This document shows, piece after piece, positions 20,726-61,683 of a stretch of DNA of 64,000 nt. The notes below the pieces were generated by a model. That model had not been told where the DNA came from. It worked only from the letters and a program-made list of their open reading frames with translations, and did not search any database. Location: contig NC_092579.1 of the NCBI RefSeq assembly GCF_037975245.1, forward strand, positions 18,039,678-18,103,677. Reading direction: 5' to 3'. The first letter of the stretch is position 1. Every line of letters begins with the position of its first letter. The translations under genes were made by a program, and so were the position numbers. The stretch is from Apostichopus japonicus. Its lineage: Eukaryota > Echinodermata > Holothuroidea > Aspidochirotida > Stichopodidae.

Positions 20726-21118
20726 CAGTGGCGGAGCGTCCATACAGTCAGGGGGCGGATGCCTTCCCCCCCCCCCCCCCCTGACGGACTCAAATGGACT
20801 GCTGGCGCCCTTTTCAGCTCTTTACCACATTTTACTTATTCGCGATTATTGACTTTTTTATTGCGCTCTCATCTACTTATTGACATTTGTCACATTTTGT
20901 TGGTGTAATTTGGCGATGACACCTATTTTTTCTTCGTTTATCTGCAAAGTAGCCAGGCCCGGAAAGGGTCATTTCCGGCGATCTAGGGAGTATCGTTACT
21001 CAAAAAAATTCTGTGCGTTACGCGCCAACCTGTGGTGGCGCTCCGCTTAGATAGTGTCGAAAGCGCCCCTGCAGACCATTTTCGCCCCTCCTGACCAATA
21101 CCCCTAGCTCAGCCACTG
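20726..21118 (+). mobile_element. hAT-like MITE, CAGTGGCGGAGC family, copy 1
   Basis: A complete 393-bp element with ends CAGTGGCGGAGCGTCC and CCTAGCTCAGCCACTG and an exact 8-bp duplication CATGGAGA at 20718-20725 and 21119-21126. It sits about 60 bases upstream of the SLC22 start codon (gene reads minus), so it lies in or next to the 5' UTR or promoter. It contains one copy of the shared hairpin module (about 21011-21055). Confidence 0.92.
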
Positions 21119-21126
21119 CATGGAGA

Positions 21127-22162
21127 TGGAGGTGTGGCGTAAGAGGGTGGGGGGGGGGGGTAAAGGTAATGAGGAAGCGAGGACCGAATATCTTTGCGTC
21201 CTGTAATAGTCAGAAGGGAATAACAATGAAATATGTAATTGCCTATTTATCAATAATTCCAGTGACAATCTCCCCACGTAGTGAGGCTGCAGGCAAAATA
21301 AAATGCGGGTGTACTCGGCAAGGAGTGTAATTGATATATTAAATTTGTATCTCTGTGTATCTCATGATAATCTACTTGTATAATCTACTTTGTATCTACG
21401 TTGTAATCTACTTTGTATCTCATGATAATCTACTTGCTAAAGAAAAACGTCGCATATCTGCTTTATTTGAATTTCAATTTGAACCCGATGGAAGGAAAGT
21501 AGAGTACGAAACTCTCGAGGGATCTTACGAAAGAGCGTCGTCGGTGTTCTCGAGGTCTCAGCCTTCATTGATGCATGGCAAACATATTCCATGGCATCAA
21601 ATGAGCTGATCTAGAACGATGAACTTACATAAATACCAGAACGAGGAACGGGGAGAGGGGGGTGGGGGGTGGGGGTGTTGGTGATGGTTGGACAATTCAT
21701 GCATCTGGCACACACATATTGTATATACGTCCTCTCAAGGTTTGACAACCTCACTAAAAAATATAGAGCATCAAATTACGTCACGCACGCGCAGACGTAT
21801 CAAGGATCAAAAAATTGTCCACGATGTATAATAGTTCGCTTTATACTAATCCTATTCTTCTTCGTCTCTCTTATTGTTGTTCTGTCTGGTCTGGAACTTT
21901 TCCTAGCTTTTTATCCTCTTACAGAGAGCAGTGACACATCATTTTCTGTTCCTCGTAGCATACAGTACAAGTCATTTATTCGCCTCTCTGAACATATTAC
22001 TTCAGCTTAACGAGTCTTATTATTTTTTTGAATACTCTTACCGCCCGATAATGATAATCTTTTCCCTAGTTCTTCGGAACACTGATCACATGCAACAGTA
22101 TATGCGGCTGGTTAAATTTTTTTATGTTGATCTTTATATGGGTATGTCCTACAGGTTTACAG
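21127..22162. other. No gene seen upstream of SLC22
   Basis: It contains a G-run near 21149, small local repeats of AATCTACTTTGTATCT around 21366-21432 and GT-rich sequence near 21660-21680. Open frames there (for example 21669-22010) have no recognisable domains. Confidence 0.5.
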
Positions 22163-22507
22163 TTAAAGGCATTGAAGACTCGCCCTAAACCGCGTGCCGC
22201 GCTCTAAAAAAGTTAACTTTCCGTTGCTTGCAAGTGAAGTTTTCTTGTTGTCGCTGCAAAATGCAGACAGTAATGAAACGTACCTTGTTTATGTCCATCG
22301 CTGCTATGTACACTGTGTTGTGGGTATTGACCGTAGCTGTGTGTATTGACTTTACAATAGTGTCTAATTACCGACGGTATAGCAAGCTTTGTGTGTATTT
22401 TCTGGGATCGACGCTGGTGTCTAACACTTCTGTTACACCTCATTCGAAACTAGGTCAGGTTACCGGCATGAGACGTTTCTTTGTGCGCGAGTCTTCACAC
22501 CCTTTAA
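22163..22507. mobile_element. TTAA-flanked MITE
   Basis: TTAA followed by AGGCATTGAAGACTCGCCC on the left; on the right, GCGCGAGTCTTCACACCCT followed by TTAA. The ends are imperfect inverted repeats (about 14 of 19 matches). TTAA flanks fit a piggyBac-type target site, but the termini do not closely match a piggyBac consensus I know, so the superfamily is open. The 116-codon frame inside (22228-22578) is not a recognised protein. Confidence 0.6.
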
Positions 22508-22926
22508 GGTACACACCGCCATGTCATGTCAACAAACTTATCGTTTTGAAAACGTGTTGGTTAATATTGACAATATAGCAGGGAATTATATGACATGCAT
22601 ATCTATGAACAACTGTCTGTATAGTAGATATAGACAGAAAGACAAACAAACAGACAGACAGGCAGTATTTACTGCATAGTCATAAAAGCCGGAGTTGGCT
22701 TAATGAGATTATTTGTTGTACCATAATACAGCTAGGGTCGGTTTAACTGCTGCACTCTGATATACTACTATACAGTATATTAAGTGACATAGTCTTCATC
22801 ATATATACAACCCGTAACAAAGGTTAAATATATGATTTCAACGATACTGTTTCATAACGGTATCTATTTTATCTTACTTACGCATATATATCATTATCAC
22901 TGGCAGCTGTATATTTGGGAATAATT

Positions 22927-23386
22927 CAAGGGCGGCGGAACCGGGGGGGCACAGGGGGCACGTGCCCCCCCCCCACTTTTCCTCAGGGTTAAAAATGTGC
23001 CCTTTTTCTACATAAAAATTGAGGTGTCTCAAGTTAGCAAGAGGCCAGGGAACCGGAATGAACACTCGGGAAGGGCCGTTTCTGGCCATCTGAGGGGTTT
23101 GTAAAACCAAAAATTTTCTTGTACGCTCCGCGCCAACCGATGGTGGCGCTCCGCTCAGATAGTCGTGCATACAACTTTGGATATTGCAGAGCTAGTATGC
23201 ATATTTTCTATGAAAGGGGTGGGGGGAGGGGGGCGTTGATGGAGTGATGTGTATACGCAAAAAAGATAATACAATAAGAGTTATAAAGGGTACTAAATAT
23301 AAGGCTACATCAGTCCAATCGAATTTCTGCAAAGTGCCCTTTGATGTCGGTGCCCCCCCAGATTAAAAGTGCTTCCGCCGCCCTTG
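22927..23386 (+). mobile_element. hAT-like nonautonomous element, CAAGGGCGGCGG family
   Basis: A complete 460-bp element with ends CAAGGGCGGCGGAACCGG and GCTTCCGCCGCCCTTG and an exact 8-bp duplication GAATAATT at 22919-22926 and 23387-23394. It includes a GGGGGCACGTGCCCCC palindrome near the left end and the shared hairpin module at about 23119-23163. A partial sister copy lies at 28425-29058. Confidence 0.92.
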
Positions 23387-23394
23387 GAATAATT

Positions 23395-24392
23395 TCAGGG
23401 TTAAGTTTTGTCAACAATTCGTATACTTTTGGAAATCAAAGTATAGTAGAATTTGCCACTCTTGTATTCAAGAAATTTTAATCAAGTACCAAGTACTTCT
23501 GATTAATTTAGGCTCTGTGTATTAAGTACCAAAGTCCGGAGTGCATGCTGCTTTTTAGGGTCCGAGTGTACCAGTGTCTGAGTACCAATTACGAGCACTT
23601 TTGTACGTTTCGAGTACTTTTAATTTATTCTTATATTGATAACTGCATGCTCCCTTGTGGTTATATTTCTTAAACAAATGTAACATTTACATGTGATGAC
23701 TTTGCTCGGAAATTGATATTGTGTGTCAGAATCAGGTTGTCCCCATATTACCAGCAAACTGGCAGTAAACAAGCGACTTCGTGATGCGTAAACAATGGTA
23801 ATAATGCAATCATGCAACTAGGTATTCCGTACGTTAGCAAGTGTATACATCTTCGCACATCCGATACGTATGTACTGCACTTGGTAGTATGCTAGGCTAG
23901 AAGACTACATGTACGGTATACTACTGGAGTAGAGGTGCAAAGTATATGAATACAATGAAGTGCCCAAAGGATCGACAAAGTAGTTGTAACGTCAGCTTTC
24001 CGAGACCTGATGCCTTACATACGTATGCTCGTATTGCGCATAAGTCCTCGCATTGAACGAGTAACAAGTCAGTTTAATCAAGTACAAGCACGAGTACTTA
24101 ATCATCCGAGTACCTTTCACCTAGTACCTGCAAAACGGTACTCTAGTAGTATACTTGAGTACCGTTTTGTACATTTCGAATACTACACCACTGGAATAAT
24201 TGTAGGTTGAATCGCTAGTCAATGAATGCTGATTAATAGATAACGAATTAAAATTAAAAAAGCCACGTATGAAATTTATCTTAATGAAACATCAGGTTTA
24301 TCAGTTTATTGTACAGAAAGACTGTACGGAGGGAATGTTTCTATATACCTGCACAAATATAAATTGAAACAACACACAAAACCGTATAGTGA
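23395..24392. other. No gene seen
   Basis: AT-rich sequence with many GAGTAC and AAGTAC words (about 23420-24190), which may be a decayed local repeat. No coding exon or complete element. Confidence 0.45.
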
Positions 24393-24400
24393 GTTGTTAC

Positions 24401-25487
24401 CAGTGGCGGCGGAACCGGGGGGGGGGCTTAGGGGGGCTCAGCCCCCAATGAAAAAGTTGAGCGGGCAAATGCATGATAAGCCCCCCAATATTTATCAAGG
24501 CTCCGAAACGTGCATCTGCCCATTTCAATGCATACTTGTCGATCTGTCCGATGCACACGTATAGGTGTAATAATTTTAGTAATTGCTAGGGGACCCTGGT
24601 CCCTCGGCCCGTCCCCTGGCTATAGACCACATTGTCACCCCAACCGCGTCTTCACGCCCCGTGAAAAGTGGAAGCAGTTAGTGTGAGTACCGGTAAGCGT
24701 AACACAACTTCGTCTTAGGCCAATGACTTGCCTCATTTCAGCCAGTTCTCCAACATCCCCTTACTTAGTGGCGAAGCGTCCATATATACAGTGAGGGGGC
24801 GGATCCCCCCCCCCCCTCCTGACGGACTCGAATGGACTGCTGGCGCCCTTTTCAGCTTTTCACTACTTTAAACTTATTCGCGATTATTGACTATTTTATT
24901 GCGCTCTCATATACCTATTGACATTTGTCATATTCTGTTGGTGTAATTTTCCGACAAAATGGCGACGACACCTATTTGTTCTCCGTTTATCTGCAAATTA
25001 GCAAGGCCCGGAAAGGGTCATTTCCTGCAATCTAGGGAGTAACTTTACTCAAAAAATTTCTGTACGCTCCGCGCCAACCTGTGGTGGCGCTCCGCTTAGA
25101 TAGTGTCGAAAGCGCCCCTACAGACCATTCTTGCCCCCTGACCAATACCCCTAGCTCCGCCACTGCCCTTACTACACTCAAAAACGTCTTTGCGAGTACA
25201 CTACGAGTGATAGCTACTCTCTTAAAACACCATCGAATATACAAATTACAATGTTTTTACAGACTTTTACGTGCAATCTGAGAAATTGCAGGCTTCAGAC
25301 CCATATTTTAGGGCTAGGTATTCGCAGCATAAAACACTCGGGAAGTGCCGTTTCCGGCCATCTGGGGGTTTGAAAAAACCCAAAATTTTCTTGTACGCTC
25401 CGCGCCAACCGATGGTGGCGCTCCGCTTAGATAGTCTCCACACATTAGCCCCCTCCCCCCAATAATTTGTCCGTTCCGCCGCGCCTG
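24401..25487 (+). mobile_element. Composite hAT-like element, copy A
   Basis: Ends CAGTGGCGGCGGAACCGG and GTTCCGCCGCGCCTG with an exact 8-bp duplication GTTGTTAC (24393-24400 and 25488-25495). The length is 1087 bp, including a complete 400-bp MITE of another family at 24766-25165. It carries the shared hairpin module twice, once in its own body (about 25391-25435) and once in the nested element. A second copy of the same composite lies inverted at 31551-32637. Confidence 0.92.
24766..25165 (+). mobile_element. hAT-like MITE, CAGTGGCGGAGC family, copy 2 (nested)
   Basis: 400 bp; the left end reads TAGTGGCGAAGC (first base changed), the right end GCTCCGCCACTG. Exact 8-bp duplication CCCTTACT (24758-24765 and 25166-25173). 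It is inserted inside the composite element at 24401-25487. Confidence 0.92.
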
Positions 25488-25495
25488 GTTGTTAC

Positions 25496-26816
25496 ATCAG
25501 GGAGACAGTGTAAATTTACACTTATTTTTTTCACGTGATTTCCATAACTTCTTCATACATTCGTAGTGATTCGATAGAATCATTATCAAGCTATAGTCAC
25601 TCTGCTTAGTTCGTTTAATTGTTTGATTATCTTTCAAGGACTAAGCCTATCCTGTTGTTCATGTTAAAAGTTGAAAGAACATTATTTGTTTGAGTTAATT
25701 AGAATGTAAAACAAAAAAAGTCACTCATTTTAGCCCTAAAGGATGCAATCTAGAGATATAAGCATATCATGTATCGTCTAATATCTTGACAACCAGAGCA
25801 GCTACATATAGCACCATTACTGACTACAATAGTACTCATTTTTGTATTTAGAATATATAAACATTTAACAGCGCAAAACTTATGTCTAATGTCATCCTTT
25901 CACGTATATAAATCTCATCTGCGGGGAAATGTCGAATTGTAAAGGTTCCACGCAGCCTGTAGGCCTACGGTAGCGTGCGAGTTGGGTATGAAAGATACCG
26001 GCTTTGCCCAGTATGAGCACGTTTTAAATGTCATATAAGAAGGGCATACAGGAACAGCAGGTATGTAGTAATGTGCAAGGTCAAGGTATATAAGAGAAGT
26101 CAACGTCGAGACATTTGCGTTTCTTGAGGTTTATAATTTGTTCACCTGACCTAAATAAAAACAAATATGCCAATGCGGCGGGTCAGAGACTTAAACCGGT
26201 AAGCCAATCCGTCCATGCTCCTGCCCAAATTAAAGCCTGTGTTGGGCTCCTATACTATGGTGATAATTAAACAATACATAAAATGGCATTATTATATTCA
26301 TACCTATACGGTTCGCACCCCATATCGATAAGAGCGCCCGAAGGCTAAGTTTTCAACGGGTCACAGACTCACAGTCAGGCATAATCACTAGTGATGATGA
26401 TAACACAATGGCACGCCAAAAGGAACCAAAAAGATAATAATCTTTATTTTCCACACCGCTCTTCACATGCAAAACAGGGTAGCTGAAAATACGAAACTTG
26501 CAGATTATACCACTATCGACGCCCATGTATGCTTTTTAATTTTTATATGCAGATTGGTATCAAAAATAATATACCATTAAAAATTCAATGTTTCCGCATC
26601 AAGTCACTTCTTTGCTAATTTAGAAGGCCTTGGATAAACATGTCTAATGCTGGTATCATCGTTTGGAACTTTCTTTAGGGAAATCCGAACCATTACACCT
26701 CACTTCAAGATTTCAAGTTTATACTGTATGTTCAAAAGCAGTCTATTGTACCGAATGCATATGCGGCCAAGCCCCAAAAATATATAAACCATAATATATA
26801 TAGAAGACAACAATTT
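25496..26816. other. No gene seen
   Basis: AT-rich sequence without supported exons or complete elements. Short frames on both strands have no domain signature. Confidence 0.5.
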
Positions 26817-27480
26817 GAAACGAAAAACAAAAATTTTAAAACAAAAATATTAAAATCGAAAAACAAAAATTTCAAAAACGAAAAAAATTTTAAAACGAAA
26901 AACAAATATTTTAAATCGAAAAACAAAAATAATTAAAACAATAACAAAATTGTAGAACGAAAATATATATTTGTTATTGTAGTCACACATTCACAAACAT
27001 TTGGATCTGACTGTGCAAGTGTGAGTAGACTTTCGATGAGAGTTCTGAAAGTCTCGGCATGGTGATCGAGACAGCCTTATTGCAGCATGCATGGTTATCC
27101 TATGCTGAATTCAGGCAATTCTATGCTTTTGAAAACGATATTATGTTTTTCGTCTTAAAATGATAGTTTTTCGTTTTAATATATTTGTTTTCGTTTTAAT
27201 ACTTTAAAAAAAAATTAAACAAAACGAAAAACAAATAATTTACAACGAAAAACAAAAAAATATTAAACCAACAACAAAATTGTAAAACGAAAAGAAAAAA
27301 AATTAATGTCGTTTTAATTCTAATTTTGAAAACGATATTATGTATTTTCGTTTTAAATTTATTGTTTTTCGTTTTAATATTTTTGTTTTCGTTTAAATAT
27401 TTTTGTTTTCGATTTAAAATTATAGTTTTTCGTTTAATTTTTTTTTTCGTTTTAAAAATTGTGTTTGTTGTTTTGAAATG
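26817..27480. repeat. AAACGAAAAACAAA repeats in both orientations
   Basis: A-rich copies of about AAACGAAAAACAAAAATTT run along 26817-26965 and 27208-27305, and the complementary T-rich form (TTTTTCGTTTTAAT) runs along about 27130-27200 and 27305-27470. The alternating orientation could fold into long A-T hairpins. Apparent 100-144 codon frames over it, rich in Phe/Leu or Lys/Asn, are products of the repeat. Confidence 0.75.
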
Positions 27481-28236
27481 TTTGTTTGTCATTTCATATT
27501 TTTTGTCTTGTAAGTATATCAACAGGATTGTTCAATATATATTGAAGTGGATCCACACACAATGCATGTATCAAGTTTATGCAAGCAGCTCTCCCAGTGG
27601 CGTAGCTACGGGGGGGCCTGGGGGGGCCGAGGCCCCCATGAAATCGGCTGGCCCCCCACTGGCCCCCCACTGGGGATGGGGTAAAAAAAAATGTAAAAAA
27701 AAAAAAAAAAACTCATCAATGCCATTCACTAATATTTTTTGTTCAATAATTTGGGAATAATAAATTGGGAGTTACACAATTTTCTCGTCTGCATCTGGCA
27801 GAATAAGAATAATACAATATCTGTAGTAATCATGAGAATGGTCACACAGCATGGCATGGCAATGGTCGATGCGATGATTGCGACCATACACCACGAACCT
27901 TGTTGTGCTGCGCGATATCGATATCTACCAATACATGTAATCGGTCATCGATTGGCACAAAAACCCAGATTCTGATGACAGCTGCCTCAAGAAACCCAAT
28001 AAATGGCCTAATTAGCACCGAGCCACCATTATCATTACCGAAACATCGATGCGTGTTAGTCTTCCATCCCCTTCCTCTAATGCTATTTAAGTCCACATGT
28101 GGGCATATCCTACAAACCTACCGGTAGCCCACAGGGGTTTGAGTTGGGAGAAAGGCCTTGACACCTTGAAACGACAAATGATGCCAACCATAGGCGTACG
28201 AGGCGGGGGGGGGGGGAGCAGACTGCCCCCAAATTT

Positions 28237-28358
28237 CCAGAGGACAAATTCGGGCAAAAGTCCTGAAAAATTCGGGCAGCCTAAGAGGAGAAAAAAAAAA
28301 TTTCTCCTTTTAGGCTGCCCGAATTTTTCAGGACTTTTGCCCGAATTTCTTGTCCTCT

Positions 28359-28360
<2 letters not shown>
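28237..28360. repeat. 124-bp near-perfect palindrome
   Basis: Two arms of about 59 bp (28237-28295 and 28302-28360) are inverted copies around a short A/T spacer. The left arm begins CCAGAGGACAAATTCGGGC; the right ends GCCCGAATTTCTTGTCCTCTGG bar a base or two. It would form a strong hairpin and probably arose by fold-back duplication inside the element. Confidence 0.9.
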
Positions 28361-28423
<63 letters not shown>

Positions 28424-28424
28424 C
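28361..28424. repeat. (TA)n microsatellite
   Basis: A TA tract joining the palindrome to the truncated CAAGGGCGGCGG-family element. It replaces that element's first ~13 bases. Confidence 0.9.
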
Positions 28425-29058
28425 CGGGGGAAAAAGGGGGCACGTGCCCCTCCCCCACTTTTCCTCAGGTTAAAAATGTGCCTTTCTTTCTACATAAAAA
28501 TTGAGGTGCCTCAAGTTACCAAGAGGCCAGGGAACCAGAATGAACACTCGGGAAGGGCCGTTTCCGGCCATCTGAGGGGTTTGTAAAACCAAAAATTTGC
28601 TAGTACGCTCCGCGCCAACCGGTGGTGGCGCTCCGCTCAGATAGTCGTGCATACAACTTTGCAAATCCTGGCTTAGCCCGTGACTATTAACGAATTTCTG
28701 TGAGTCAAACTCAAAACATTTTCGAATGGAAACAATTGTTAAGATATTAACAAGAAAAAAACTCTAATTCGGAAGATTCCTACATTAGCAACTAGCTTGA
28801 TTTCACCTCATTTTGTCTCAAAAGAAAACTTGTTCCTTGTTTCCCAATTTGCGCATTGGATATTGCAGTGCTAGTATGCATATTTTCCTTGAGGGGGGGG
28901 GGGGGGGCGTTGATGGAGTGATGTGTACACAAATAAGATAATACAATAAGAGTTATAAAGGGTAGTGAATATAAGGCTGCATAAGGCTGAATTTCTGCAA
29001 AGTGCCCTTTGATGTCGGTGCCCCCCCCCCCAGATTAAAAGTGCTTCCGCCGCCCTTG
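28425..29058 (+). mobile_element. Innermost CAAGGGCGGCGG-family element, left end lost
   Basis: From CCGGGGGAAAAAGGGGGCAC to CTTCCGCCGCCCTTG it matches the complete copy at 22927-23386, including the CACGTG palindrome and the hairpin module (about 28601-28645), but it is longer by an insertion around 28665-28855. The left terminal repeat is missing at the TA tract. GCCCTTG at 29052-29058 is the right end. Confidence 0.85.
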
Positions 29059-29923
29059 ACCTGGATATCCCCGACATGAGTGTATAAAAGAAACATTTTC
29101 TTTTTCATGGATGGTGGGGGGGGGAGTGCCTACAAGCCTAGAAGTACAGGTTTATCATATTCTTTGTTATATTTTATCCTTTTTTCTGAGACAAATTGCA
29201 GTCTCACCCGACACAGCGACATTATCCCGCCTGTCGTTGAACAATGTATGTTTTTCTGGAGGTAGCTGAGTACTGTGTTAAAATAATAAATAAGGTAACT
29301 AAATATAGGAGCTTAAAAAATATACTGTCCCATTTTTCCCCTTCAAAGTGATGTTACCATTTTTTCTTCTTCAAATTTACCAAATTTTTGGGGAATTGTA
29401 AATTTCTAAAACGTGAGATTATAAAATAAAAAATGTTTAGATGCAACTTGCAAGGCCTCAGAAGTGCCGTTTCCGGCAACCTGAGAGGCATTGTGTGCCA
29501 AAAATTTTCTTGTACGCTACGCGCCAACCGATGGTGGCGCTCCGCTTAGATAGTGTCACAGGAACTTTCAGGCACAAAAAGTTCTGCCCCCCCAAACTGA
29601 AATGGTCCCGTACGCCTATGATGCCAACTTCCCTCAAGTTAAAAGTCTGGCTGAGTTGGCAAGGCCAGTCAGCATGAAAGAGAAAAAACTTTTTTTTGCA
29701 TTTCTGTCACCAAAGTTGCACATCTTTTTGGTTGCTATTTTGCCACACAGGTGCCATCTCCTGCGATCTGGGGGGTTTTGAAATCTCAAATTTTCTCTGT
29801 ACGCTCCGCGCCAACCAAGGTTGCGCTCCGCTCAGATAGTAACCTCCGGCCCCCCCCCCACAAGAAAGAACATCCCCCCATGGCCCCCACTCAAAAAATC
29901 CTAGCTACGCCACTGAGCTCTCC

Positions 29924-31550
29924 TCCTTGAATGACCATGATTACTATAGTTTTTCAGACTTGGTTGACTCTGTTGAAGTTTGGGCAACAAATTGTCAAAA
30001 GGTACATGGTAAAATGTCATCACTGCTAGTAAATATGCTAATATTTAATCAAGATGCAGTTTTCTATAACTCTCAAAACACACTTTTTTGCCAATGATAA
30101 ATGCTTTAATCTGATTCGATCCAGACTTGCCAATAAACCTGCAGAATTCTTTTGAAAAAGTTGAAGGTAATTGCTGGAGGTTTGTTCTTGTCTTTGGTAC
30201 ATACAAGTGTGCTTTGATAATTCTCTTCTATATGGGTGGGAAAACTGCAATGCATTGCGTGTAGTGCTACCATATATGGTGTACTAATTTTAGACAGGAG
30301 CATATACTACAAACCACTTGCTATTTGCAGAATCTAGCTGTTACTTGATATAATGTAGGCAAAGTGTCCTATCCTGACATGTTTAAAGCTTGTACCCATT
30401 CAAGTAATTTTTTTCATCCATAAAAGAGCATGATCTTTGTGTGCTGATTCATCTACTTGCACTTATTATAAGCCTGAACTACAATACAAATCAATATTAC
30501 AGGCAACCGGTTTTTAGTGAATTAATATGGGACAACCGTTAGATGAACCACACATGAGTGTTCATCTAATGCGACTATCATATCCCGAGTGAACTGTTCA
30601 CAGTTACGCGTTACTTACGCGATACTGCAAATAAAGGAAACACTGTTAACAAACAATCACACTTACCAGAAGGAAGGACAGGATTATGTAAGTTCAGTCA
30701 ACTGTGGACAGGATTAACGGAAGGTTTCAGCTCGTACCGGCCGCAGTGGAGAGGTTCGAATTTCCTAACTTGCACAGCATGTACAGCGATAGTGCATATT
30801 GATTATACAAATGCTAATTGGCTATACGGTTGGTAGAATGCCGTCCGATTTCAGCCATGTAGTATTATCGTCTGCAACAGAAAACACATATACGTTGGTC
30901 AAGGTCTACAGCCTTATCAAAGCGGTTTGGAATAGCATTTTTCTACCTGCATACTGTCGAGAATAACTTTTCTCGTTCCCTTTACAGCGTGCTCAATCAA
31001 TGCCTCGGTCGATTGCAAGCATCACATCACAGTGGTTATTGACTATGTTGCGTAATAATAACGCCAGGATTGTTGTGATTGTTCGGTAACCATAACGTGC
31101 ACCACTAGATCTGCTATCCGATATCGACAGGAAAAGATAAACCGCAATGTGCGCTCTGGGCTACGATAAATATGGTGGGAAACCAATGATGTTTATGCAG
31201 AGGTTAATTTGAGCAATGGCGCCATTTCTTAACACAAGTGCTGAGTTAAGGCTTCTATGAGGATATTGTTAGTCATAAAGATCAAAAAGCGGCTGGGCTG
31301 TTCATTCGAGAGGAAGCTATAGTGCTTACTAGGGTTAAATCTCTTCCCAAAAAATGTAAGTCGGAGATCTGTGTAGTGCGTTAGTATCATAGGAATTAAA
31401 TCAAACAGCTCCAATTGATTTGTGTTAGCTCCGTGAGGGGGTGCAAATGTCCAAAGGCCCGTCCCAAACCCCACACGGTATGGTATTCATACTTCATGAA
31501 CGACTAGGGGGTACATACGAAATTTGGGCCAGGCCTTAGTTTTGGTCAAA
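29924..31550. other. No gene seen; one half of a dispersed direct repeat
   Basis: AT-rich, no supported exons. A small hairpin TTAGATGAAC...GTTCATCTAA is at about 30538-30570. Bases about 31405-31490 (CTCCAATTGATTTGTGTTAG, then TGCAAATGTCCAAAGGCC) recur in the same orientation at about 32728-32815, on the other side of the composite element. Confidence 0.5.
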
Positions 31551-32637
31551 CAGGCGTGGCGGAACGTAAAATTATTGGGGGGGGGGGCTAATGTGTGGAG
31601 ACTATCTAAGCGGAGCGCCACCATCGGATGGCGCGGAGCGTACAAGAAAATTTTGGGTTTTTTCAAACCCCCAGATGACCGGAAACGGCACTTCCCGAGT
31701 GTTTTATGCTGCGAATACCTAGCCCTTAAATATGGGTCTCAAGCCTGCAATTTCTCAGATTGCACGTAGGCCTAAAAGTCTGTAAAAAGTACATTGTAAT
31801 TTGTATATTCGATGGTGTTTTAAGAGAGTAGCTATTACTTGTAGTGTACTCGCAAAGACGTTTTTGAGTGTAGTAAGGGCAGTGGCGGAGCTAGGGGTAT
31901 TGGTCGGGGGGGCAAGAATGGTCTGTAGGGGCGCTTTCGACACTATCTAAGCGGAGCGCCACCACAGGTTGGCGCGGAGCGTACAGAAAATTTCTGAGTA
32001 AAGTTACTCCCTAGATTGCAGGAAATGACCCTTTCCGCGGGCCTTGCTAATTTGCAGATAAACGGAAAATAAATAGGTGTCGTCGCCATTTTGTCGGAAA
32101 ATTACACCAACAGAATATGACAAATGTCAATAGGTATATGAGAGCGCAATAAAATAGTCAATCATCGCGAATAAGTAAAAAGTAGTGAAAAGCTGAAAAG
32201 GGCGCCAGCAGTCCATTTGAGTCCGTCAGGGGGGGGGGGCCTCCGCCCCCTGACTGTGTATATGAACGCTCCGCCACTAAGTAAGGGGATGTTGGAGAAC
32301 TGGCTCAAATGAGGCAAGTCATTGGCCTAAGACGAAGTTGTGTTACGCTTACCGGTACTCACACTCACTGCTTCTACTTTTCACGGGGCTTGAAGACGCG
32401 GTTGGGGTGACAATGTGGTCTATAGCCAGGGGACGGCCCGAGGGTCCCCCAGCAATTACTAAAATTATTACACCTATATAGTATACGTGTGCATCGGCCA
32501 GATCGACAAGTATGCATTGAAATGGGCAGATGCACGTTTCGGAGCCTTGGTAAATATTGGGGGGGGGGGGGCTTATCATGCATTTGCCCGCTCAACTTTT
32601 TCATTGGGGGCTGAGCCCCCCGGTTCCGCCGCCACTG
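31551..32637 (-). mobile_element. Composite hAT-like element, copy B
   Basis: An inverted copy of 24401-25487 with the same length of 1087 bp, carrying the same nested MITE. Ends CAGGCGTGGCGGAAC and GGTTCCGCCGCCACTG. The flanking 8-bp duplication is TGGTCAAA on the left (31543-31550) and GGGTCAAA on the right (32638-32645), one mismatch. The flank differs from copy A's, so this is an independent insertion of the composite. Confidence 0.9.
31880..32279 (-). mobile_element. hAT-like MITE, CAGTGGCGGAGC family, copy 3 (nested)
   Basis: 400 bp nested in composite copy B, with the duplication AGTAAGGG on both sides (31872-31879 and 32280-32287). This is the reverse complement of copy 2's CCCTTACT, so both nested copies descend from one insertion. 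It shares copy 2's altered end (CCACTA). Confidence 0.92.
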
Positions 32638-40369: not shown

Positions 40370-40440
40370 GGTGGGGGAGGGTATAGGTGGGGGAGGGTAT
40401 AGGTAGGAGTGAGTGAGGGAGGGAAAATGGAGGTGAGAAA

Positions 40441-41138: not shown

Positions 41139-41536
41139 CAGGGTTGTCCAACCTACGGCCCGCGGGCCACAGTCCGGCCCGCCGCAGGGTTGCGTCCGGC
41201 CGGCCAGAGATGCTCTACGGTGCGAAATTTTAGTGAGCAGATTTATTGATAACAATTTGAAGCTATATAATCAATCATTCGAACCTTCTGGGTCCAAAAA
41301 ACTGCATACAGGACAGTTTGTGTGACACTCTCAGCGGAGGGGGGGGGGGGGGGCGGCTGGACTTTATTCATCTGTTTTACCAGGAAGGAAAATAAATCAG
41401 TGCGCTCCGCGCGCAGTGCTCACTTTTTTTTGGCCTTGGGCTTCGGGCAAAAAATCGAGCGTAGGGTTCATGCGGCCCCCTCCTTCATCATAATCATTCC
41501 ATGTGGCCCTCCTCTGCAAAAGGTTGGACAACCCTG
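41139..41536. mobile_element. hAT Charlie-like nonautonomous element
   Basis: 398 bp with ends CAGGGTTGTCCAACCTACGG and AGGTTGGACAACCCTG and an exact 8-bp duplication GTTTAGAT (41131-41138 and 41537-41544). The end followed by GGCCCGCGGGCC is the style of Charlie/Tip100 hAT elements in other animals. A G-run is near 41339-41353, and GCGCTCCGCGCGC near 41402 may be a remnant of the shared module. Confidence 0.9.
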
Positions 41537-43187: not shown

Positions 43188-43193
43188 TTTATT
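43188..43193 (-). promoter_or_regulatory. Polyadenylation signal of ETFA
   Basis: AATAAA on the minus strand about 105 bases past the ETFA stop codon. Confidence 0.5.
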
Positions 43194-43298
43194 CCATGGA
43201 TATAAAAATGATTTTGATTCCCTTCAAATTTAAAGAAGAAATTTTCATATTTCCTGTTCCATACACATCTCAATTCTTTTTTTTTTGGTCATTTTTTC

Positions 43299-52283
<8,985 letters not shown>

Positions 52284-53883
52284 ATAAGTAGTACAGCCTT
52301 ATTTAGTCCTAGTTTTCGAACGCAGCATGTAGGGTAAGATATATCGCGGATTTAGTCCAACACTGGCGTACATAGAATGATTACTGGCGGAGTATATATA
52401 CGTTAATAACAAGGCCATGTATTATTACTTAGGAAGTAACTGACGATTCTTGGAAATGAAGTAGATATTGCAGTGTTTTTAAAACAACAAACCGATTGGG
52501 ATATCCTTCTGGAATTTCTGCCGACGATTCCGAACATCTTGAAATTGTTGTACGCTTGTAGGATTCTATGTTTTCATTAGTCCAATGTACCTGAAGGTGA
52601 CCGTAAAGGCTGTACAGTGTATATATGATGTAACCATTATATTCTGTATAGTTGAATTCGAGTCAAAGTAGTTACGCAAAACGCATGTTACAAAAGATGT
52701 AAGATTTAATTGCTGCCCTCAATTTTTTCATTACCTAAAGATGTTCAGCTTGCTAGCATGCAATGAAAGTCACCTGGGCCAATATACTACGGGCTCATTT
52801 CAAATAAGCCTATCCCGAAATTACATGAAAATATGCATGATGATAGAAACGTTTTACTGTCTATTTTTACAAATTAATATATATATTTAGCTCAAACTGT
52901 CACACTAAGTTCAATCCCATGTCAAACATGTTAAGATCCATTTGATGTATTTAAACGTAAACTAAGGAAATATTACACAAAAGGAAATTTGTCACAAACA
53001 GTGTTAATTATGAGTACTCGCTTGGTATAGAGCTGTCAATATATGTTACTGTGTTATAATTAGCAAACGTGGGCCGGTGGCACGTTATGGTCATTTCTGA
53101 AGCCAACTCACTAAAATAGTGTGGCGATCCAGATAGGATATGTGGGTTTCCGTTATTGTTTGTACCAAGTACCACTCAAATGCGTGCATCCGAGTATCAA
53201 AAGATCGCGGTGCCAGCGATTATTTATAAAGTGACGTAAGGGCTGGCAAAAGTGCGATCCGGGTAATTATTGTAGAGCGTCCGTCAGATAACCTATATAA
53301 AGGGTAACCACTCTATTATGTGACGGTTTTATTAATTAGAATGAATAGCTAAGAATTTTGAAGAAAAAAAAAATAATAGGCCTAACAACAAAACTTATTA
53401 ACACGTTTTACGATTGTTCTTATGTTGGACATGGAAAAGCTCCATAAGTGAGGAGTCGGATAGGAACTAGAGGAAGAAGATGGTGAGGTTGATGGTAGAC
53501 AATGGGTGTCTTTTTTATTTAATGAGATGTTTGAAAAATTCACAAGAAGTTAAGCTAATTTTCAAGAAGGAGAGGGTGGTGGAGGGGAGTTGTTGATATG
53601 TTTAAAAATATAATGGAATTAAGTTACACGTAGTACATCTTCTTCTGTATAGCAATAACTTAATAACTTGGTCAAGCTGTGATCAGTGTGGTCAAGATAC
53701 AAGTCACGTGAGTAGCCTAGCCTCCAATATCTTCAGCTACACAGAAGTTTTGGTACGGAAAGTAGGCCCTACTTGATCAAACCAAGGAGAAATATGCATT
53801 ACCATAGTTATCAGCTTAATCGCAAGGAAAACAACAGATATTTACATTTTCATGATCTAAAATGTGTTTTGGCAGTTCTTTGG
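52284..53883. other. No gene seen upstream of ETFA
   Basis: This should contain the ETFA promoter, but no clear core motif stands out. No coding exons or complete repeats are supported. Confidence 0.45.

Positions 53884-53981
<98 letters not shown>
53884..53981. repeat. (TA)n microsatellite
   Basis: A pure TA tract of about 98 bp in the ETFA-SDR intergenic region. Confidence 0.95.
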
Positions 53982-54277
53982 GTTTTCCGCTGGGTGAGTA
54001 AGATGTTCCGCTAAACTACTGTGTGGATAATTTTAATTAAAAGAGTTAAATTGTGTCTAAATGTGAAAGTAAAGATTATACTAAGAATATTATCTGGTTG
54101 TGTTTAAGTGCTTAAATTACGTATAAACGTTTGTTCCAATGGATATTAGTCTTCTCAGTATAATTAATAAGATGATTAATCAGGGGTTAATCTGCTTACG
54201 TTAGCTGTACTGAGATAATGACCTTTAAAGTCGGCGATTCGGACGGTTATCACCGATAGGCTATAAAGTCCATCTAC

Positions 54278-54633
54278 CAAGGGCGTAGGAACGGGGGGGC
54301 AGTGAAAAATATGAAGGGGCGGAAGTATTTTCCCGCCCCCCCCCCCGCTTCGCAAGTAAAAAAAATCCTTTTTCATTTCCAAATGAGAAAAAAATCTCAT
54401 TTGAAGCACCAAATTGCATCTAAGGCCAGGTGAAAATGCAAAATTATAAACAAAATGGAGTGGGTGGGTTGAAGTGTGCTATATTGCACCAAATTGCATC
54501 TGAGGCCACCTGGAAATGCAAACAATTTCCAAAGGGGAGGGGGAAACCCCCTCCCCTTACACCCCTCCCCCAGGCCTGCCATCAGTCTTCAGTCCCCCCC
54601 CCCACCACTCAAAAGTACCTTCCTACGCCACTG
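54278..54633 (+). mobile_element. hAT-like nonautonomous element, CAAGGGCGTAGG family, copy 2
   Basis: 356 bp, ends CAAGGGCGTAGGAACGGG and TTCCTACGCCACTG. The target duplication is CCATCTAC on the left (54270-54277) and CCATTTAC on the right (54634-54641), one mismatch. It is clearly the sister of 19686-20059, sharing the two GCACCAAATTGCATCT segments. Confidence 0.88.
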
Positions 54634-54641
54634 CCATTTAC

Positions 54642-56083
54642 AATGGCTGAACGATGGCGACAATTAATTAAACGTCCCGTTTATTATTGTTTTTCTTATT
54701 AAAACAAAGGACAAGAGATTGCGCGGTCAAGTACATGGAGAACGACGGTAAAATTTACAAAGAGACGAACTGTAAAATGTATTTCGATAACGTAGATCCA
54801 TAGACTACAAGTAGATGGCGCTAATGCTTTATTTTCGAAGTGATGTAGCTGCGAAAGACATTCTGACTTTTCCAGACGAACACAATGTTTTAGCTTTCGC
54901 TAAAACGTAGTAGGCTGTGTAGTATTTGTTTTATTGATGAAGAGAACAAGGAAATTGGGGTTACAATTATACAAACTGAATATAAAATTTAAAATTACCA
55001 ACGCCCTTAACAACTCTATCGGGTGAAATCACCCTGACCCTCTTTACATACATACACAATCGTTAATAGTTTGTATAATGAGAAGTTGATATATAGGACG
55101 TGCACTATATTTAGTGCATAATAATTATAATTACCGAACCTTCCATAAAAGTGAATGACGCAGCATACAAGACAGCCATGTGGCTACTTTTAAGGTTCAC
55201 TCTGTATAGTTCCATGGGAAAGAGCTGAAATAGGTTGGGAAGGGGCCGGGGGGGGGGGTTCGGGTGGGGTAGCGTGTACTAATTGTGAATGTTGCAAAAT
55301 TGCCCGTGCCTTGATTAATATGTGCTGTTCACACGGATGAGTAAAAATAGCCCTCAAGATATGTTATAGAGGTTCCATAAAAAGCAAACAATTTTCTCGC
55401 GTGAAAACTCATTTAATTGTACTCACTTGTTCAGTACCTTCAAAAAGAATATAAAATTGTAGCGTAATATAATACTAATGATAACAGTTATTTTTAATAT
55501 TATTCAAAAGTAACATATAAGCCCAACCACCTTTGTAAGTCTTATAAGTGATGAACAACTTCTCCGCAAACCGCTAAACACATTATCTTATACCTTTTGT
55601 GAGATATCACAGACTGAAGTCTAAATATGACATCCGATCGAGCTACAAGTGTTTCATATTTTGAATCGTTTTGAATTATTAATAACAATGTTTTACTATC
55701 TATATTGGTGATGGGTTTTGTAAAATGCTGAATCTAAATTATTGCGGCTCTTAACATGAGCTAATGATGGGCATTTATTTGTTTCGATGCCAACACTGTA
55801 AACATTTCTACATTGAAAGTATGAATAAAGCAGGGGAAGGGAAATTACCAGGTTACATATAGTATTGGTATTATAATATCACAGATTTACGAATGTCATC
55901 TCCAAGATACTTTTAAAAACTAGGATATATCACATCTGGAAAATAGTATATTCCTGGTTTGCGGTTGAGATGTTCTTGACAAAGATTTCTTGCCGTGTAA
56001 GCCATAGCTGATGGTTTGGTTGATGTCCCCTTTACGTTAATTGCGTATTATCTGCCCCGGACTTTAAAGAACAGGGTCAAAGG
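54642..56083. other. No gene seen downstream of the SDR gene
   Basis: AT-rich with a G-run at about 55248. A minus-strand AATAAA at 55774-55779 lies 305 bases past the SDR stop and is a possible polyadenylation signal. No other supported feature. Confidence 0.4.
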
Positions 56084-59000
56084 TCAGTAGGTATGCTCCA
56101 GGGTACTCCTAACGTGTTTTACAAGGGCTTCTCCTGTTGTATCTTTGCAGAATTTGCTGGCGACGTAAACACCTATCTGGTCTGATTGGTAGACTGCGAA
56201 TGGTTCTTCTTTTTCAGTGATATCTTTGATTATTTTGGCCGTCTATGCAATGGGAAAACAATGTAAGCAGAACATAATAAATGACATTAATGTGTTAAAT
56301 TATGTTAAATTATTATGTTACTGAAAGATATGCTTAATCGTTGTACTAGGAATTTGGTCGGCGATTTAACAAACCGATAGTATGGCCTAGTTGGTTAGGG
56401 TGTTAGCTATATATATAAAGCGGGAGTCCCGGGTTCGAACCCCGGTAGAGGCTGGAAGTTTTGGCACTGTACTGAATTCTCAAATATACACACACATATA
56501 TAGATAGATAGATATAGTATATGTAAATAGTAGGCTATTTGTATGTTACTAATATAGATTTGCTATACTGCCATGCATATTGTTAATCCGTAATTCTTTC
56601 CAAACTATAGTTACAACCGTTTTGTGTTTAGCGTTTGTGTATCATTCAGTAGTTAATTGTCTTCAAAATTCGATGTAATGTGACGTTATAGCTTACTGTA
56701 CATTAGTTTTGAGATTTGGCTCGGAAGTAATTCTAATAGTGCCACAGTACCGTACATTGAACTAGCCCGGGTAGTTACGTACGTACGACACTATAGTCTG
56801 CGTAGCGAACACTTGATAACGTAGTTTTGAAGGATTTCAACGTATTCATTGGCCTTTAACAAATTGAGCCAACACCGTCCATGAAGATTTGCCCAATTCG
56901 CTTCAGTAACAGTTGCGAATATTTGGGCGATCAAATTGCGCGTGAGTAATGCAATAATTAATGGCTTACCTCTTCCGGATCTTGTGCTTGACATTCCGGC
57001 TTAAATGCATTTGCTAATTGATCAAGTCGTTCCTGAAACATTTTATTCGTGACTTCATCAACTTTTTCAGTCAGTCGCACGTGATCCTGGTAATCACGTG
57101 ATTCAAAAACCTTCATGGGACGCTCGGTTCGAACAGCTCTAGGATGCAAGACGCTGAGCCTGATGAATATATAAATATGATTTTAATATTAGTCTAAACA
57201 AAAAAAAGGATGTCAATTTGATAAATTAGTTTAATTGTCGATTTTGCCACGTTTACAATTAAGAATGGAAAAAATCTGGATGTGAAACAAAATAAAATTA
57301 CATATGAATATTTCAACAGAATTAAATACATATTAACGTAACACAATGTCACAGTCAATTCCTTTTATTTAAAAGGTTAGCTGTGTAATGAAGGAACATT
57401 TTCCCCGCACGCAACAACTTCAGCAGAAGATACAGACAGTCTGATTCATTCGTGTTTAATTAATTAGTATAGTTAATAATCAGACGCTATGTGAGTCGTT
57501 GAATCTCCCTACCATGCATAATGGCTAAATTACATCTCATAAAGTATAGAATATGCATAGGCTGAACGGAAGTTGCGAATCAAGCAATGTTCTTCTGTTT
57601 TACGTTCCTCTGCCTTTATTTCTGACATGTAACAGCCCCTACCCCCCCCCCCCCCACACACACACCACCCCAAAAAGGGTCTCCAAAGGGAGAATTAATG
57701 AGATGGTTAGCTTATAAAGACCTTCTTGTTGGTACCCTCATTTGAATAAATACCTCTACAAGGAGAAGACTAATTACACAACCATAACTTTTGCCCTCAG
57801 ATATGCTTGTATAATCCATTTTCCCTTAGACGACCAAGAAAATTCTTGTTCCGGTAAGTAAATGCATTGGTTTAAATCCACGTTAAGAGACTGTTGTCTT
57901 ATTAATTAAATTTCAAGGGAGATTAACTCTAACAGAGGGGATATGGAAGGGGGTGGGGGGGGGTAGGGAAAGCAAGAAGAAAGGTAAGTCATGTCCTCCC
58001 CATGGGCTCATTCAACCTCATAAAATAAGGTTGAGCCCATTCAACCTTATTAACCTGTTTGTATTCTGTGCTTGTATTTGTCCCTTGTAGTTTCTGTTAC
58101 TTGTCACTCAGCCTCTGAAGAAGATCCTGCTAAGATCGAAACGTCAGGCCCACAATACTTTTACACATTTCTCTTACACAGGCTCTTTAGTGGATAAGTA
58201 GTTTGCTAACAGTTTTGTTTTTGTTTTATAAAGATATATAAAATGTATGAAAACAAACCAAACATTGTACGGTCTCAGTTGAGCGTTCAAGTCGGTGGTT
58301 AGAGACTCAAGGGCACACTTTGAACCGGAGAAATACTCGTTGAATATTCCGTTATCTGTTACAAGATACACAAAGATACACAAACAAAAGTTAATTTGCA
58401 TATCTCAGAATCATCAGACTGAGACAATATTAAAGGAAATATGATGTAATCTTTTCATTCCTACCCCTCCCTGCCCCAGATGCATTTCTTAATTATGTTA
58501 GAATCACCTATCCTAAGAAAAAGGGAATAGAATAAAATAACTGGAACACTTTAAAGTGATAAATATATCCAGGCAATCTTTTTCTTGTTGTTAGTACTCC
58601 TATACCAGGGAGCAAATTTTCTGTTTGTGCCGTCAGAGAAATTTGACCCCCAAACTGTAATCAAATCATGGAAACAGTTATACGTTGGGTTAAAACTACT
58701 TGTGCTTTCCATGAAAAAGTTCAAAACAAACTGCATATAAATATATGATTGTTGTGCATGCTTTTTGTGTGCATGACGTATGCATGATATTAGCGTGACT
58801 CACATCCGACAGCTCCTATAGATCCTATGCTAATGATTCTTCCGTGACGTCGTTCCTTCATTCCTGGGATCAGCAGATGAATGAGTCTTGCATGACCAAA
58901 GAGATTAATCTCCATGACTTTTCTTCCCGAGTCAATATCAAGGGTCTCAAATGGAGAGAAAAAGGTGCATACGGCGTTGTTAACTGCATTGAAAGAAGAA

Positions 59001-60064
59001 TAAGTAAATACCAGGGTATAATTAAATGTTATCGGAATCGCTGTTTCCTCCCCATCCCCTGCCCCCTTCCCCCTTCCCCCTTCCAAGATGCTAGACTATG
59101 GTCAAATTATGACCACTGGTGTTCAAAATTCAACAACCGTTACTGTCGCCACCTTCAAGCACTTCTAATCAAAGGGATGTGTTAAAGGTGCGAATGCAGA
59201 AGATGAGGATTTGGCTAGTTTACAGCCCACCCACACTTTTCAATCACATCACCTCACGTCCACCTCCCCCTTCCCCAAACAAAATAACTAACTAAATGTA
59301 TATGTCCCCGCATCCTGGCGTTGTGTAGTTCTAATTTCATGTCTAACATTTGCTTTTACGTCACCCACATAATTTTGGACATGCTTATATTATTTTGGAT
59401 ATGTAGGCTTGTTTATACGAGGTTTGTTTCTTAATTACGCTCCATTTTGATCGTGTATTCGATTGATTGTTTTTTTGTTCTCGTATATATTTCGAGAGTG
59501 TTGAAATCCTTCAGACAAAATACTCTCCATGTGCATTCCGTATCACAAATCCCAGTATTTGAATGTGTTTCAACAAAAAGCAACTTCTTCAGTGAATTAC
59601 TTCAGAGTAATTTACAAAGAGATTTAATGAAATGTCTAAGGAAAGTATTTTTACGTTACCAAAAAGGAAATATTTCTGATTTATGTAAGCGCCCGGGGTG
59701 GGTGGCACCGTTGAGGTTTTCACAAACTGAGGGCCCTTGTGCCTAGTTCCTACCTCAAGACTATTTACTGCCCATTATACTATTGCTTCAACTTACCCAA
59801 AATGTCGATTTTGCCGTCTGTTTTGAGTATCATATCCACAGTAGATTCGATACTATTCTTGACGGTAAGATCAATGGAACAAACAAACAAGGTATCGTCC
59901 AGTAAATTCCCCGCCATTTTCTTAATAAGTTCGCTGTCGTCATCAACTCGTACTGCTGCCCATACTTTATAACATTTTCTAGGGTCATTAGCGTACTCCA
60001 TTGCAATATTAGTACCAAGTCCAAATGAGCACCCGGTAATGAGTACAACTTGCTTGTCAGCCAT
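56084..60064 (-). CDS. Short-chain dehydrogenase/reductase, RDH8/HSD17B1-like
   Basis: Five minus-strand exons: 60064-59797, 58983-58804, 58355-58259, 57159-56970 and 56242-56084. They total 894 nt and 297 aa. It is a classical SDR: the cofactor motif TGCSFGLG (TGxxxGxG) at residues 10-17, NNA at 91-93, and SIGSIGAVG at 141-149 with Ser144 in the catalytic position. NEYFSGSKCALESL then follows, with Tyr157 and Lys162. Family members convert retinal/retinol or 17-keto/hydroxysteroids with NADP(H); the layout, with LTTDLNAQLRPYNV and a long C-terminal region, fits the RDH8/HSD17B1 branch. Oddities: the active site reads Y-x4-K instead of Y-x3-K (see findings), and the exon 3 donor is a weak GTTTGT. 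An acceptor just before the ATG suggests a 5' UTR exon upstream. Substrate and activity are uncertain. Confidence 0.9.
56376..56455 (+). mobile_element. tRNA-derived SINE head or tRNA pseudogene
   Basis: It has an RNA polymerase III A box TGGCCTAGTTGG (56383-56394) and B box GGTTCGAACCC (56432-56442) at normal spacing, with a good T-stem (CCGGG/CCCGG). The acceptor stem does not pair well and the anticodon arm is replaced by a TATATATA run, so it is not a working tRNA. It ends near TA- and GATA-rich repeats. It lies in the last SDR intron. Confidence 0.65.
58004..58038. repeat. Short hairpin
   Basis: GGGCTCATTCAACCT followed closely by AGGTTGAGCCC: an 11-bp stem with a bulge, in SDR intron 3, just upstream of the hammerhead-like remnant. 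Confidence 0.6.
58111..58150 (+). ncRNA. Hammerhead-ribozyme-like motif of a Penelope-like remnant
   Basis: GCCT, then CTGAAGA, stem II made of GATC...GATC, GAAA, ACGTC, AGGC. GCCT and AGGC can form stem I, GTC is a standard cleavage triplet, and ACGT is a self-complementary stem III as in dimer-forming hammerheads. No Penelope coding sequence is nearby, so this is probably an orphan terminal repeat within SDR intron 3. Confidence 0.5.
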
Positions 60065-60584
60065 GATTCCTGTGTGTAGTAAAATGAAAGAAAAAAAACT
60101 GTTTATAATCACACACTCGTGTTTTGACCTAGAAAAGAACACGGGATCAATAAATTAATCATTAATTTGGTCAATTATTTCAGAAGCAACCATGTAGAGC
60201 AAAACGAAAAAAACTAGGCTGATCTACTGGTTAGCCCCTTTTCATGTTTCAGACTCTCCTATGAATCTCATACCCAGCTCTATCCATTCCATTCACGTCC
60301 CACAACCCTCCCCTTCCCCTCCCGTGAAAAGAGCAACGATACAGTTGTTCATATGATTAATGTTTTGCATTTTTCGAGCAATCTTATCTCCACATGGATG
60401 CTTATAAGACACTGAGTCGATCAACCACTTGAGTTTAGTCAAAGTTCTCAGATTTTCTCCACAAGAGTGACAGACAAAACAAACAAATCTATTGGTCATA
60501 ATACGGTACAACCATGATATGTTAAACTGAAGAACCAAACAAACTTGAGACGAGGTGTAACTGGCCCAATACACCGACTCTAGC

Positions 60585-60790
60585 GATTAACAGAATAATG
60601 TACACTACTGCAGGGTGATATTTTAATAAGGTAGGGGATTCAATCTCTTCGAACCCCGCCACCTTAGGTATCGCCCAATACTAACCGCGACTCTAGCGAT
60701 GAAAATGGTTAATGTACACTACTGCAGGGTGATATTTTAAGAAAGTAGGGGATTTACTAACCCCGCTACCTTCATTCTACACCATATTTT
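60585..60790. repeat. Two-copy tandem duplication, ~120 bp
   Basis: GACTCTAGCGAT, AATGTACACTACTGCAGGGT, GATATTTTAA, GTAGGGGATT and CCCCGC.ACCTT occur in the same order twice (from about 60578 and 60690). The copies have diverged by several bases. They lie just upstream of the SDR coding region, probably in its 5' intron. Confidence 0.8.
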
Positions 60791-60899
60791 TGCCAACCTT
60801 TCATTTAACGAACAAGAGCCAATACTAATTATTTATATAAGTCAAATAAAGAAAAAAAAATTGATACACGTCAAAATATGTTAACGTATAGGTACTTAC

Positions 60900-60960
60900 C
60901 TAAATACTTTTCTCAGATTTCGTTTTGTTTAAATCTTCTCAGGGAATGTTTCTGAAACAG
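60900..60960 (-). other. Candidate 5' noncoding exon of the SDR gene
   Basis: Minus-strand sequence ending GTATTTAG before a perfect GTAAGT donor (donor G at 60899) could splice to the acceptor CACACAG just before the SDR start codon (exon resuming at 60069). The upstream boundary is not known; the span given is nominal. Confidence 0.3.
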
Positions 60961-61325
60961 AATCTGTAATGTTGTTATATTACAAAAACCCAGCTGACGT
61001 ATATCTTCCAAAGTGTTCGCATTGCAGAGAATATCTATATATATATATACATTTCAGAGATCCTTAGCCTGTTCACATGAAGTGATCAAGGCTACATTGT
61101 AATTAGATTAAGTAAGATTAAGTAATACTCGAGTCAATTAAGTATAAATACTCAAGGCAGAGTCTGTGAATAATAAGGGTGTTATGATGTGTAGTCTATA
61201 GTATATTGATGAGTGATAGATCATTTCGAAGGGGCATTGTTGGTTTCAGCAAACCATTGTATGAGTCGTTGAACAATTTTGAGTGTTCCGTTGATGAGAA
61301 GTTCTACGGGTATGTATTTAAAGAG

Positions 61326-61683
61326 TTAGGGGTATTGGTCAGGGGGGTCGAGAATGTTCTGTAGGGGCGCTTTCGACACTATCTAAGCAGAGCGCCACCA
61401 CAGGTTGGCGCGGAGCGTACAGAGTTTTTTTGAGTAAAGATACTCCCTAGATCGCCGGAAATTACCCTTTCCAGGACTTGCTAATTTGCAGATAAACGAA
61501 GAAAATAGGTGTCATCGCCAACAAAATGTGACAAATGTCAATAGGTAGATGAGAGCGCAATAAAAAAAAGTCAATAATCGCGAATAAGTAAAAAGTGGTA
61601 AAAAGCTGAAAAGGGCGCCAGCAGTCCATTTGAGTCCGTCAGGGGGGCATCCGCCCCCTGACTGTATGGACGCTCCGCCACTG
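61326..61683 (-). mobile_element. hAT-like MITE, CAGTGGCGGAGC family, copy 5 (truncated)
   Basis: From TTAGGGGTATTGGTC to GGACGCTCCGCCACTG it matches the other four copies. The left terminal repeat is missing and no target duplication can be found. The hairpin module is at 61378-61422. Confidence 0.88.

Follow-up and report, generated by a model that had tools for sequence, protein, structure and literature searches.

The 64,000-nucleotide (nt) stretch of the Apostichopus japonicus genome analysed here (NCBI RefSeq assembly GCF_037975245.1, contig NC_092579.1, positions 18,039,678 to 18,103,677, forward strand), hereafter the window, carries eleven copies of a 45-bp hairpin module scattered among transposable elements. 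Its two halves coincide at all 11 places with no more than three mismatches, against 0 expected from 100 shuffles, which confirms the count of about 11 given in a first-pass annotation made from the sequence alone; the coordinates in that annotation mark the low end of each module, give or take about one base. All 11 copies sit in miniature transposons of the hAT type belonging to five families (A, five copies; B and C, two each; D and E, one each), several of which are nested in each other, and all five of the differing terminal repeats named earlier are present. As argued below, the module is the core of a block of ~105 nt located near the right end of a hAT lineage, and this block most likely acts as a one-sided cis signal for transposition, a reading to which a probability of about 0.5 is assigned.

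Six of the module-bearing elements were recovered by a scan for terminal inverted repeats (TIRs) with exact 8-bp target-site duplications (TSDs), and the remainder were placed by reading supplemented by a script. The elements, with the block contained in each, are as follows.

20726..21118, forward strand: family A element, TIR CAGTGGCGGAGC, TSD CATGGAGA; block 20955-21066, 123.6 bits.
22927..23386, forward strand: family B element, TIR CAAGGGCGGCGG, TSD GAATAATT; block 23062-23174, 120.6 bits.
24401..25487, forward strand: family C element with an A nested inside, TIR CAGTGGCGGCGG, TSD GTTGTTAC; C block 25334-25446, 123.6 bits.
24766..25165, forward strand: family A nested in this C, CCCTTACT as TSD on both sides; block 25004-25115, 125.9 bits.
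27595..29915, forward strand: family D element with an E nested inside, TIR CAGTGGCGTAGC, TSD AGCTCTCC; D block 29740-29851, 91.4 bits.
28189..29620, forward strand: family E nested in D, with a B nested inside, TIR CATAGGCGTACG, TSD ATGCCAAC; E block 29453-29565, 101.9 bits.
28426..29059, forward strand: second B, nested in E, placed by repeat match to the first B, its left end blurred by an adjoining AT repeat; block 28544-28656, 119.8 bits.
31551..32637, reverse strand: second C with the same A nested inside, flanks TGGTCAAA/GGGTCAAA matching at 7/8 positions; C block 31590-31702, 120 bits.
31880..32279, reverse strand: family A nested in the second C, flanked at either end by AGTAAGGG as read by eye (the script sets the right end one base shorter); block 31931-32042, 117.6 bits.
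51690..52074, reverse strand: family A element with TIR and TSD TTGCTAGC; block 51742-51852, 116 bits.
61327..61683, reverse strand: family A truncated at its low-coordinate end, placed by reading with the end set by script; block 61367-61478, 120.9 bits.

A covariance model built from the 11 blocks scores them at 91-126 bits, and no twelfth block was detected in the window (next match 12.4 bits, E-value 0.57). The assignment to hAT is based on 8-bp TSDs, exact in six window elements and with at most one mismatch in 27 elements across the genome sample, and on short TIRs starting with CA and ending with TG, of the types CAGTGGCG, CAAGGGCG, CATAGGCG, CAGGCGCG and CATGGGCG. The composite of a C with an A at the same nesting site, present at 24401-25487 and 31551-32637 within different flanking repeats, was probably amplified as one unit; in the genome list, a second module follows 320-345 bases on, on the same strand, after 11 of the 100 first-listed module places. 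Element E additionally contains a near-perfect inverted repeat at 28246-28348, with 48-nt arms that are 98% complementary and a 7-nt spacer.

The conserved unit is not the 45-bp module as initially described, but extends over ~105 nt. It comprises, in order, an upstream hairpin (GGAAGTGCCGTTTCCGGC), the motif ATCT, hairpin 1, which is small and variable, the conserved linker AAAATTTTCTTGTACG, hairpin 2, which is the one noticed in the first-pass annotation, and CTTAGATAGT; the looser TTTCC block that had been reported upstream of the module is real. Averaged over ten pairs of families, each family represented by a single copy, identity is 64% across the first 27 columns, 55% across the hairpin-1 region, 79% across the linker and 93% across the module, and drops to 26% over the next 11 columns. 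The core arms are near-invariant across 107 distinct copies. The proposal that the module stays alike while its surroundings differ therefore holds between families (93% vs 26%), but is not clear within families A and C of the window, where the module diverges by 5.9% and 2.3% and the rest by 6.5-10.6% and 1.6-4.0%, respectively. In a larger set of six families, divergence of the module (0.8-4.0%) is lower in all six than that of the far-upstream part (2.0-14.9%), and in family F2 it is not below that of the adjoining upstream 62 nt; these rates are not used as evidence here, because the copies were found via the block and grouped by block likeness.

The block is highly abundant in the 671.6-Mb assembly of 35 contigs, in which the hairpin core GCGCCAAC-N(2-5)-GGTGGCGC has 15,539 exact copies (control 0), the left half of the module 4,888 exact copies (control 0) and the linker word 7,838 copies (control 1). 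Judged by eye only, some open frames look like animal genes. The F1 elements (~280-307 bp) show the short length, high copy number and noncoding character of miniature inverted-repeat transposable elements, although the core count also covers longer elements. A covariance model applied to 94 loci (98 fetched, minus four that overlap others) yielded 121 matches at an E-value of at most 0.01, of which 107 are distinct; they fall into 26 groups, 17 of them single copies, many of these decayed, and the named families total eleven when D, F9 and G are added. Because all sampled loci are from contig 1 and were located via the linker or the module, divergent forms of the block are under-sampled.

The strand of the block and its distance from the right end are kept in most families. 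Of 27 elements from the 121 matches that are defined by TIR and TSD (at most one mismatch), 22 have 46-89 nt between the end of the block and their right end; the five exceptions are four B copies (221-402 nt) and an A block for which the distance was taken to the end of the enclosing C (388 nt). The same placement is observed in F8 and G, two hAT families with transposase coding sequence, in which the block is on the coding strand and 50-63 nt separate it from the right end. Descent from one transposon, one of the origins first envisaged, is supported by the shared place and strand. The coding sequence seen is the C-terminal part in F8 and a 514-amino-acid open frame in G, and the two families are 39% identical in the C-terminal stretch compared; no BED domain was noted, though no search was aimed at one.

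F8 was recognised in a 1,297-bp element at locus L040 on contig 1 (CAGTGGCGTCGTGCC...GGCACGACGCCCCCTG, flanked by CACGGATG/CTCGGATG), in which a C-terminal hAT transposase coding part, whose exon matches PF05699 at 5.8e-11, is followed on the same strand by the block, 56 nt from the right end. With this coding stretch as query, the four best places, L040 itself included, were read as F8 copies; since they are 94-95% identical, they are considered one family. All four contain the block, 50-63 nt from the right end, with TSDs that are exact in two copies, match at 7/8 positions in one and are broken in one. An AATAAA precedes the block in three copies and lies at its start in the fourth, and much of the block may therefore be outside the messenger RNA.

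Family G consists of L161 and its sister L166, together with further copies of the right-end word CAGGCCCGTCGGAAGG, which occurs at 14 places in the genome; by eye, each of these has a hAT domain 1.1-3.0 kb upstream on the same strand. Its open frame matches DUF4371 (8.6e-13) and Dimer_Tnp_hAT (PF05699, 1.2e-7), as well as the Hermes transposase at residues 123-211 (E-value 1.5e-5). The block, present in both of the copies read among the 14, starts ~910 nt past the stop codon, and its end lies 58 nt short of the position from which the sequences flanking the two copies differ; the right end is of the CA/TG type, the left end was not found, and L166 contains no AATAAA. By eye, the distance from hAT domain to right end divides the G copies into two length classes, six with ~1.1-1.2 kb and eight with 2.4-3.0 kb, a pattern that would fit a 3'-region insertion propagated together with the element.

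In a search with the hAT dimerisation region, 150 of 633 candidate places were scored and 30 loci fetched; the block model matched in two of the 30 (L149 and L142), neither of which was judged to be part of a transposase element, the block at L149 belonging by reading to a C-like element beside the hAT sequence and that at L142 being a B block at the locus edge, judged by position only. Ten further hAT 3' flanks (1.8 kb each) contained the block in three cases, L158, L160 and L161. At L158 it is a B block on the strand opposite to the hAT sequence; L160, L167 and L168 have an E-like element near the hAT frame and look like copies of one composite, and were rejected as independent carriers. No block was detected within ~1.5 kb on each side at the long-frame hAT loci L121, L125, L138, L140 and L144-L148.

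A role as a cis signal for mobilisation fits these observations because the palindromic core is near-invariant, strand and distance from the end are kept, coding carriers exist and the block is retained in noncoding derivatives. Under this interpretation, the ancestor of a hAT lineage would have carried the block near its right end, on the coding strand and 3' of the transposase coding sequence; miniature derivatives would then have lost the coding part and diverged in their terminal repeats, while the block would have been kept as a one-sided signal. In its most likely form, this signal would be a quasi-palindromic DNA site (arms GTTGGCGC and GGTGGCGC) contacted by a transposase that assembles on two unlike ends; binding of the block by transposase is plausible.

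Several observations weigh against this interpretation. Compensatory change in the upstream hairpins is not predicted by a pure DNA site. Two B-ended elements that inserted at different sites with exact TSDs (L134 and L142) lack the block. Among 14 TSD-defined elements not anchored on a block search, six lack it; of the eight that contain it, six come from the window and two via the F8 query, and the proportion is not an unbiased rate. The GCTNCGC unit of the module reappears in the terminal repeats of A, D and F1, a point in favour of the signal, and is not found in those of the other seven families tested (right end only for G). Among eight family blocks, AAGT/AAGC, the repeats given for Hermes (PMC10368747), are not found in those of B and D and lie on the minus strand only in that of A.

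The main competing explanation, which appears improbable, is that the block acts as folded RNA or single-stranded DNA, its hairpins being needed by the element transcript, perhaps in the 3' part of the transposase mRNA. The fold itself was proposed by RNAalifold with the alignment as sole input (the hairpins and an outer stem), and the block lies on the coding strand in F8 and G. In the 107 distinct copies, changes on both sides of a pair are found in 92 cells, compared to 38.4 in shuffles (0 of 500 reach the observed value) and 14-44 with slid partners. The stem GCGCCAACC/GGTGGCGC of hairpin 2, in which the first-pass annotation had looked to compensatory change, is paired in 96.9% of cells and contributes only two such cells, in one of eight pairs; the changes reside instead in hairpin 1 (50 cells, four of five pairs) and the upstream hairpin (39 cells, four of seven pairs, 35 of the 39 in one pair), with a single cell in the outer stem. 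Arm-swapping among ten families, which supersedes a five-family version of the test, gave p values of 0.023 for hairpin 1 and 0.022 for the upstream hairpin. Despite their differing sequences, 10 of the 11 named families can form hairpin 1. These covariation figures are indicative only, because the strings were chosen after the alignments had been seen and the families are related; the 107-copy alignment was, moreover, fitted to the model. Against folded RNA, the outer stem gave p 0.33 in the arm-swap test, and the hairpin-1 arms of four of the ten families (B, F2, F8 and F9) pair no better than the swapped mean. Hairpin 1 is only 62% paired and does not fold in the coding carrier G or in the L160 type, and six single-sequence folds have z-scores of -0.2 to -2.24. 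The placement of AATAAA in F8, upstream of the block or where it begins, also argues against a role in the message, as does the retention of the block in miniature elements that have no message to regulate. Rfam gave no match for the window at gathering scores, nor for one block region (251 nt) at E-values up to 10. A tRNA-like origin was rejected as well, ARAGORN having detected no tRNA in the window.

Another possibility is that nested insertion, deletion or gene conversion has carried the block, or the interior around it, from one family to another, so that its likeness reflects recent movement. Nesting is indeed frequent, the C-plus-A composite is repeated, and A and C have consensus modules with few differences although their surroundings differ. 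Exchange between elements, another of the origins first envisaged, did take place in at least one case, in which interior segments were swapped between families: in L134 and L142, the place of the block is taken by a segment that bears a CGCGCG hairpin and has 77-80% similarity to the terminal part of another element, L058. As a general account, exchange is nevertheless unlikely, given that strand and right-end distance are kept in most families, that upstream similarity fades with no sharp end, and that the block is present in two coding families as distant as F8 and G.

The hairpin of this segment in L134 and L142 belongs to a second class of GC hairpins, TTCGCGCGC-nnn-GCGCGCGTTC, with 1,139 exact copies in the genome (control 0) and varying loop letters. 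Like the block, it is a GC-rich hairpin after a AAAATTTT-like stretch in hAT-like elements; unlike the block, it has different arms. The window also contains a hAT-like element without the block.

L058:2106-2544: contains a second-class hairpin, ~65 nt from one end of the element.
L134:1941-2552 and L142:2376-3154: each contains a second-class hairpin within a B-ended element.
Window 19686-20059: hAT-like element of 374 bp without block, ends CAAGGGCGTAGGA / TCCTACGCCACTG, TSD TCTGTGAC.

Either what counts is a GC hairpin near an end, with one class able to stand in for the other, or the block is not essential. A bolder and distinctly tentative proposal is that the block is a folded nucleic-acid element in which tandem hairpins with compensatory change surround an invariant one. 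A hAT lineage would carry it at the 3' end of its transposase gene, miniature derivatives would require it to move, and the second class could replace it; it would then be a structure-based cis signal in a cut-and-paste transposon.

Plain descent, in which the block is the leftover of one ancestor under no constraint, is quite improbable: it is compatible with the carriers with transposase coding and with a module that is not clearly slower than the rest within the families of the window, but it had already been weakened by the uneven conservation between families along the block (93% in the module, 55-64% beside it, 26% after it). Recognition of the CpG-rich palindrome by a host DNA-binding protein, for example as a promoter or insulator site, is the most doubtful account, since in F8 and G the block is at the far end of the element, past the 3' end of the coding sequence, even though the palindromic arms are near-invariant and TTGGCGC resembles an E2F core.

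The usual classification of miniature transposons relies on terminal repeats, the feature taken to determine which transposase mobilises them. Here, families whose TIRs differ have in common a block close to one end, and elements with transposase coding sequence contain this block as well. It is a concrete candidate explanation of how a single transposase could mobilise many families and of why the two ends of a hAT element must differ. The G elements, the thousands of block-bearing copies and the B-ended elements without the block provide natural material for testing the proposed cis signal.

Outside this genome, two tight patterns matched no viral contig; two looser patterns matched 7 and 8 viral contigs, and the model gave only four 11.3-bit matches on the first 7. 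Among bacterial and archaeal genomes, one pattern had no match and a second matched 7 contigs, bacterial by title, which were taken as chance, and phage and plasmid records gave no match. No report of this hAT block was found in searches of an open-access library; repeat databases and most subscription papers, which lay outside the search, may describe it.

The window has three further features.

41139-41536: 398-bp element of another type, perfect 14-base inverted ends CAGGGTTGTCCAAC, TSD GTTTAGAT.
43770-44844: two opposite-strand open frames encoding near-identical stretches, an inverted duplicate, GIY-YIG-like by eye only.
62120-62600: tandem array with a unit like ATATATATTCTCTAAGAGAAAAA, up to the end of the stretch read.

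Two known systems serve as precedents and offer points of comparison. The CMITEs of Acropora corals are miniature elements with unlike terminal repeats and one highly conserved internal region thought to aid transposition; they are of the piggyBac type with TTAA target sites and share a 75-nt internal region whose source is unknown (PMC2872659). As in the present block, this internal region is better conserved than the terminal repeats (PMC2872659). The elements described here differ in their hAT type, their 8-bp TSDs and the finding of carriers with transposase coding, and the printed 60-bp CMITE consensus is unlike the block (local score equalled by 410 of 500 shuffles). In Hermes, itself a hAT element, two BED domains bind a quasi-palindromic pair of left-end subterminal repeats; the pair studied lies within the first 27 bp, and symmetrised ends lose most or all activity, indicating that end asymmetry is needed (PMC10368747). 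The present block differs in being GC-rich and in lying at the right end, tens of bases further in, with protein binding that is putative here. The two systems nevertheless share quasi-palindromic subterminal repeats in a hAT element whose unlike ends are needed, and it is the Hermes transposase that the G frame matches.

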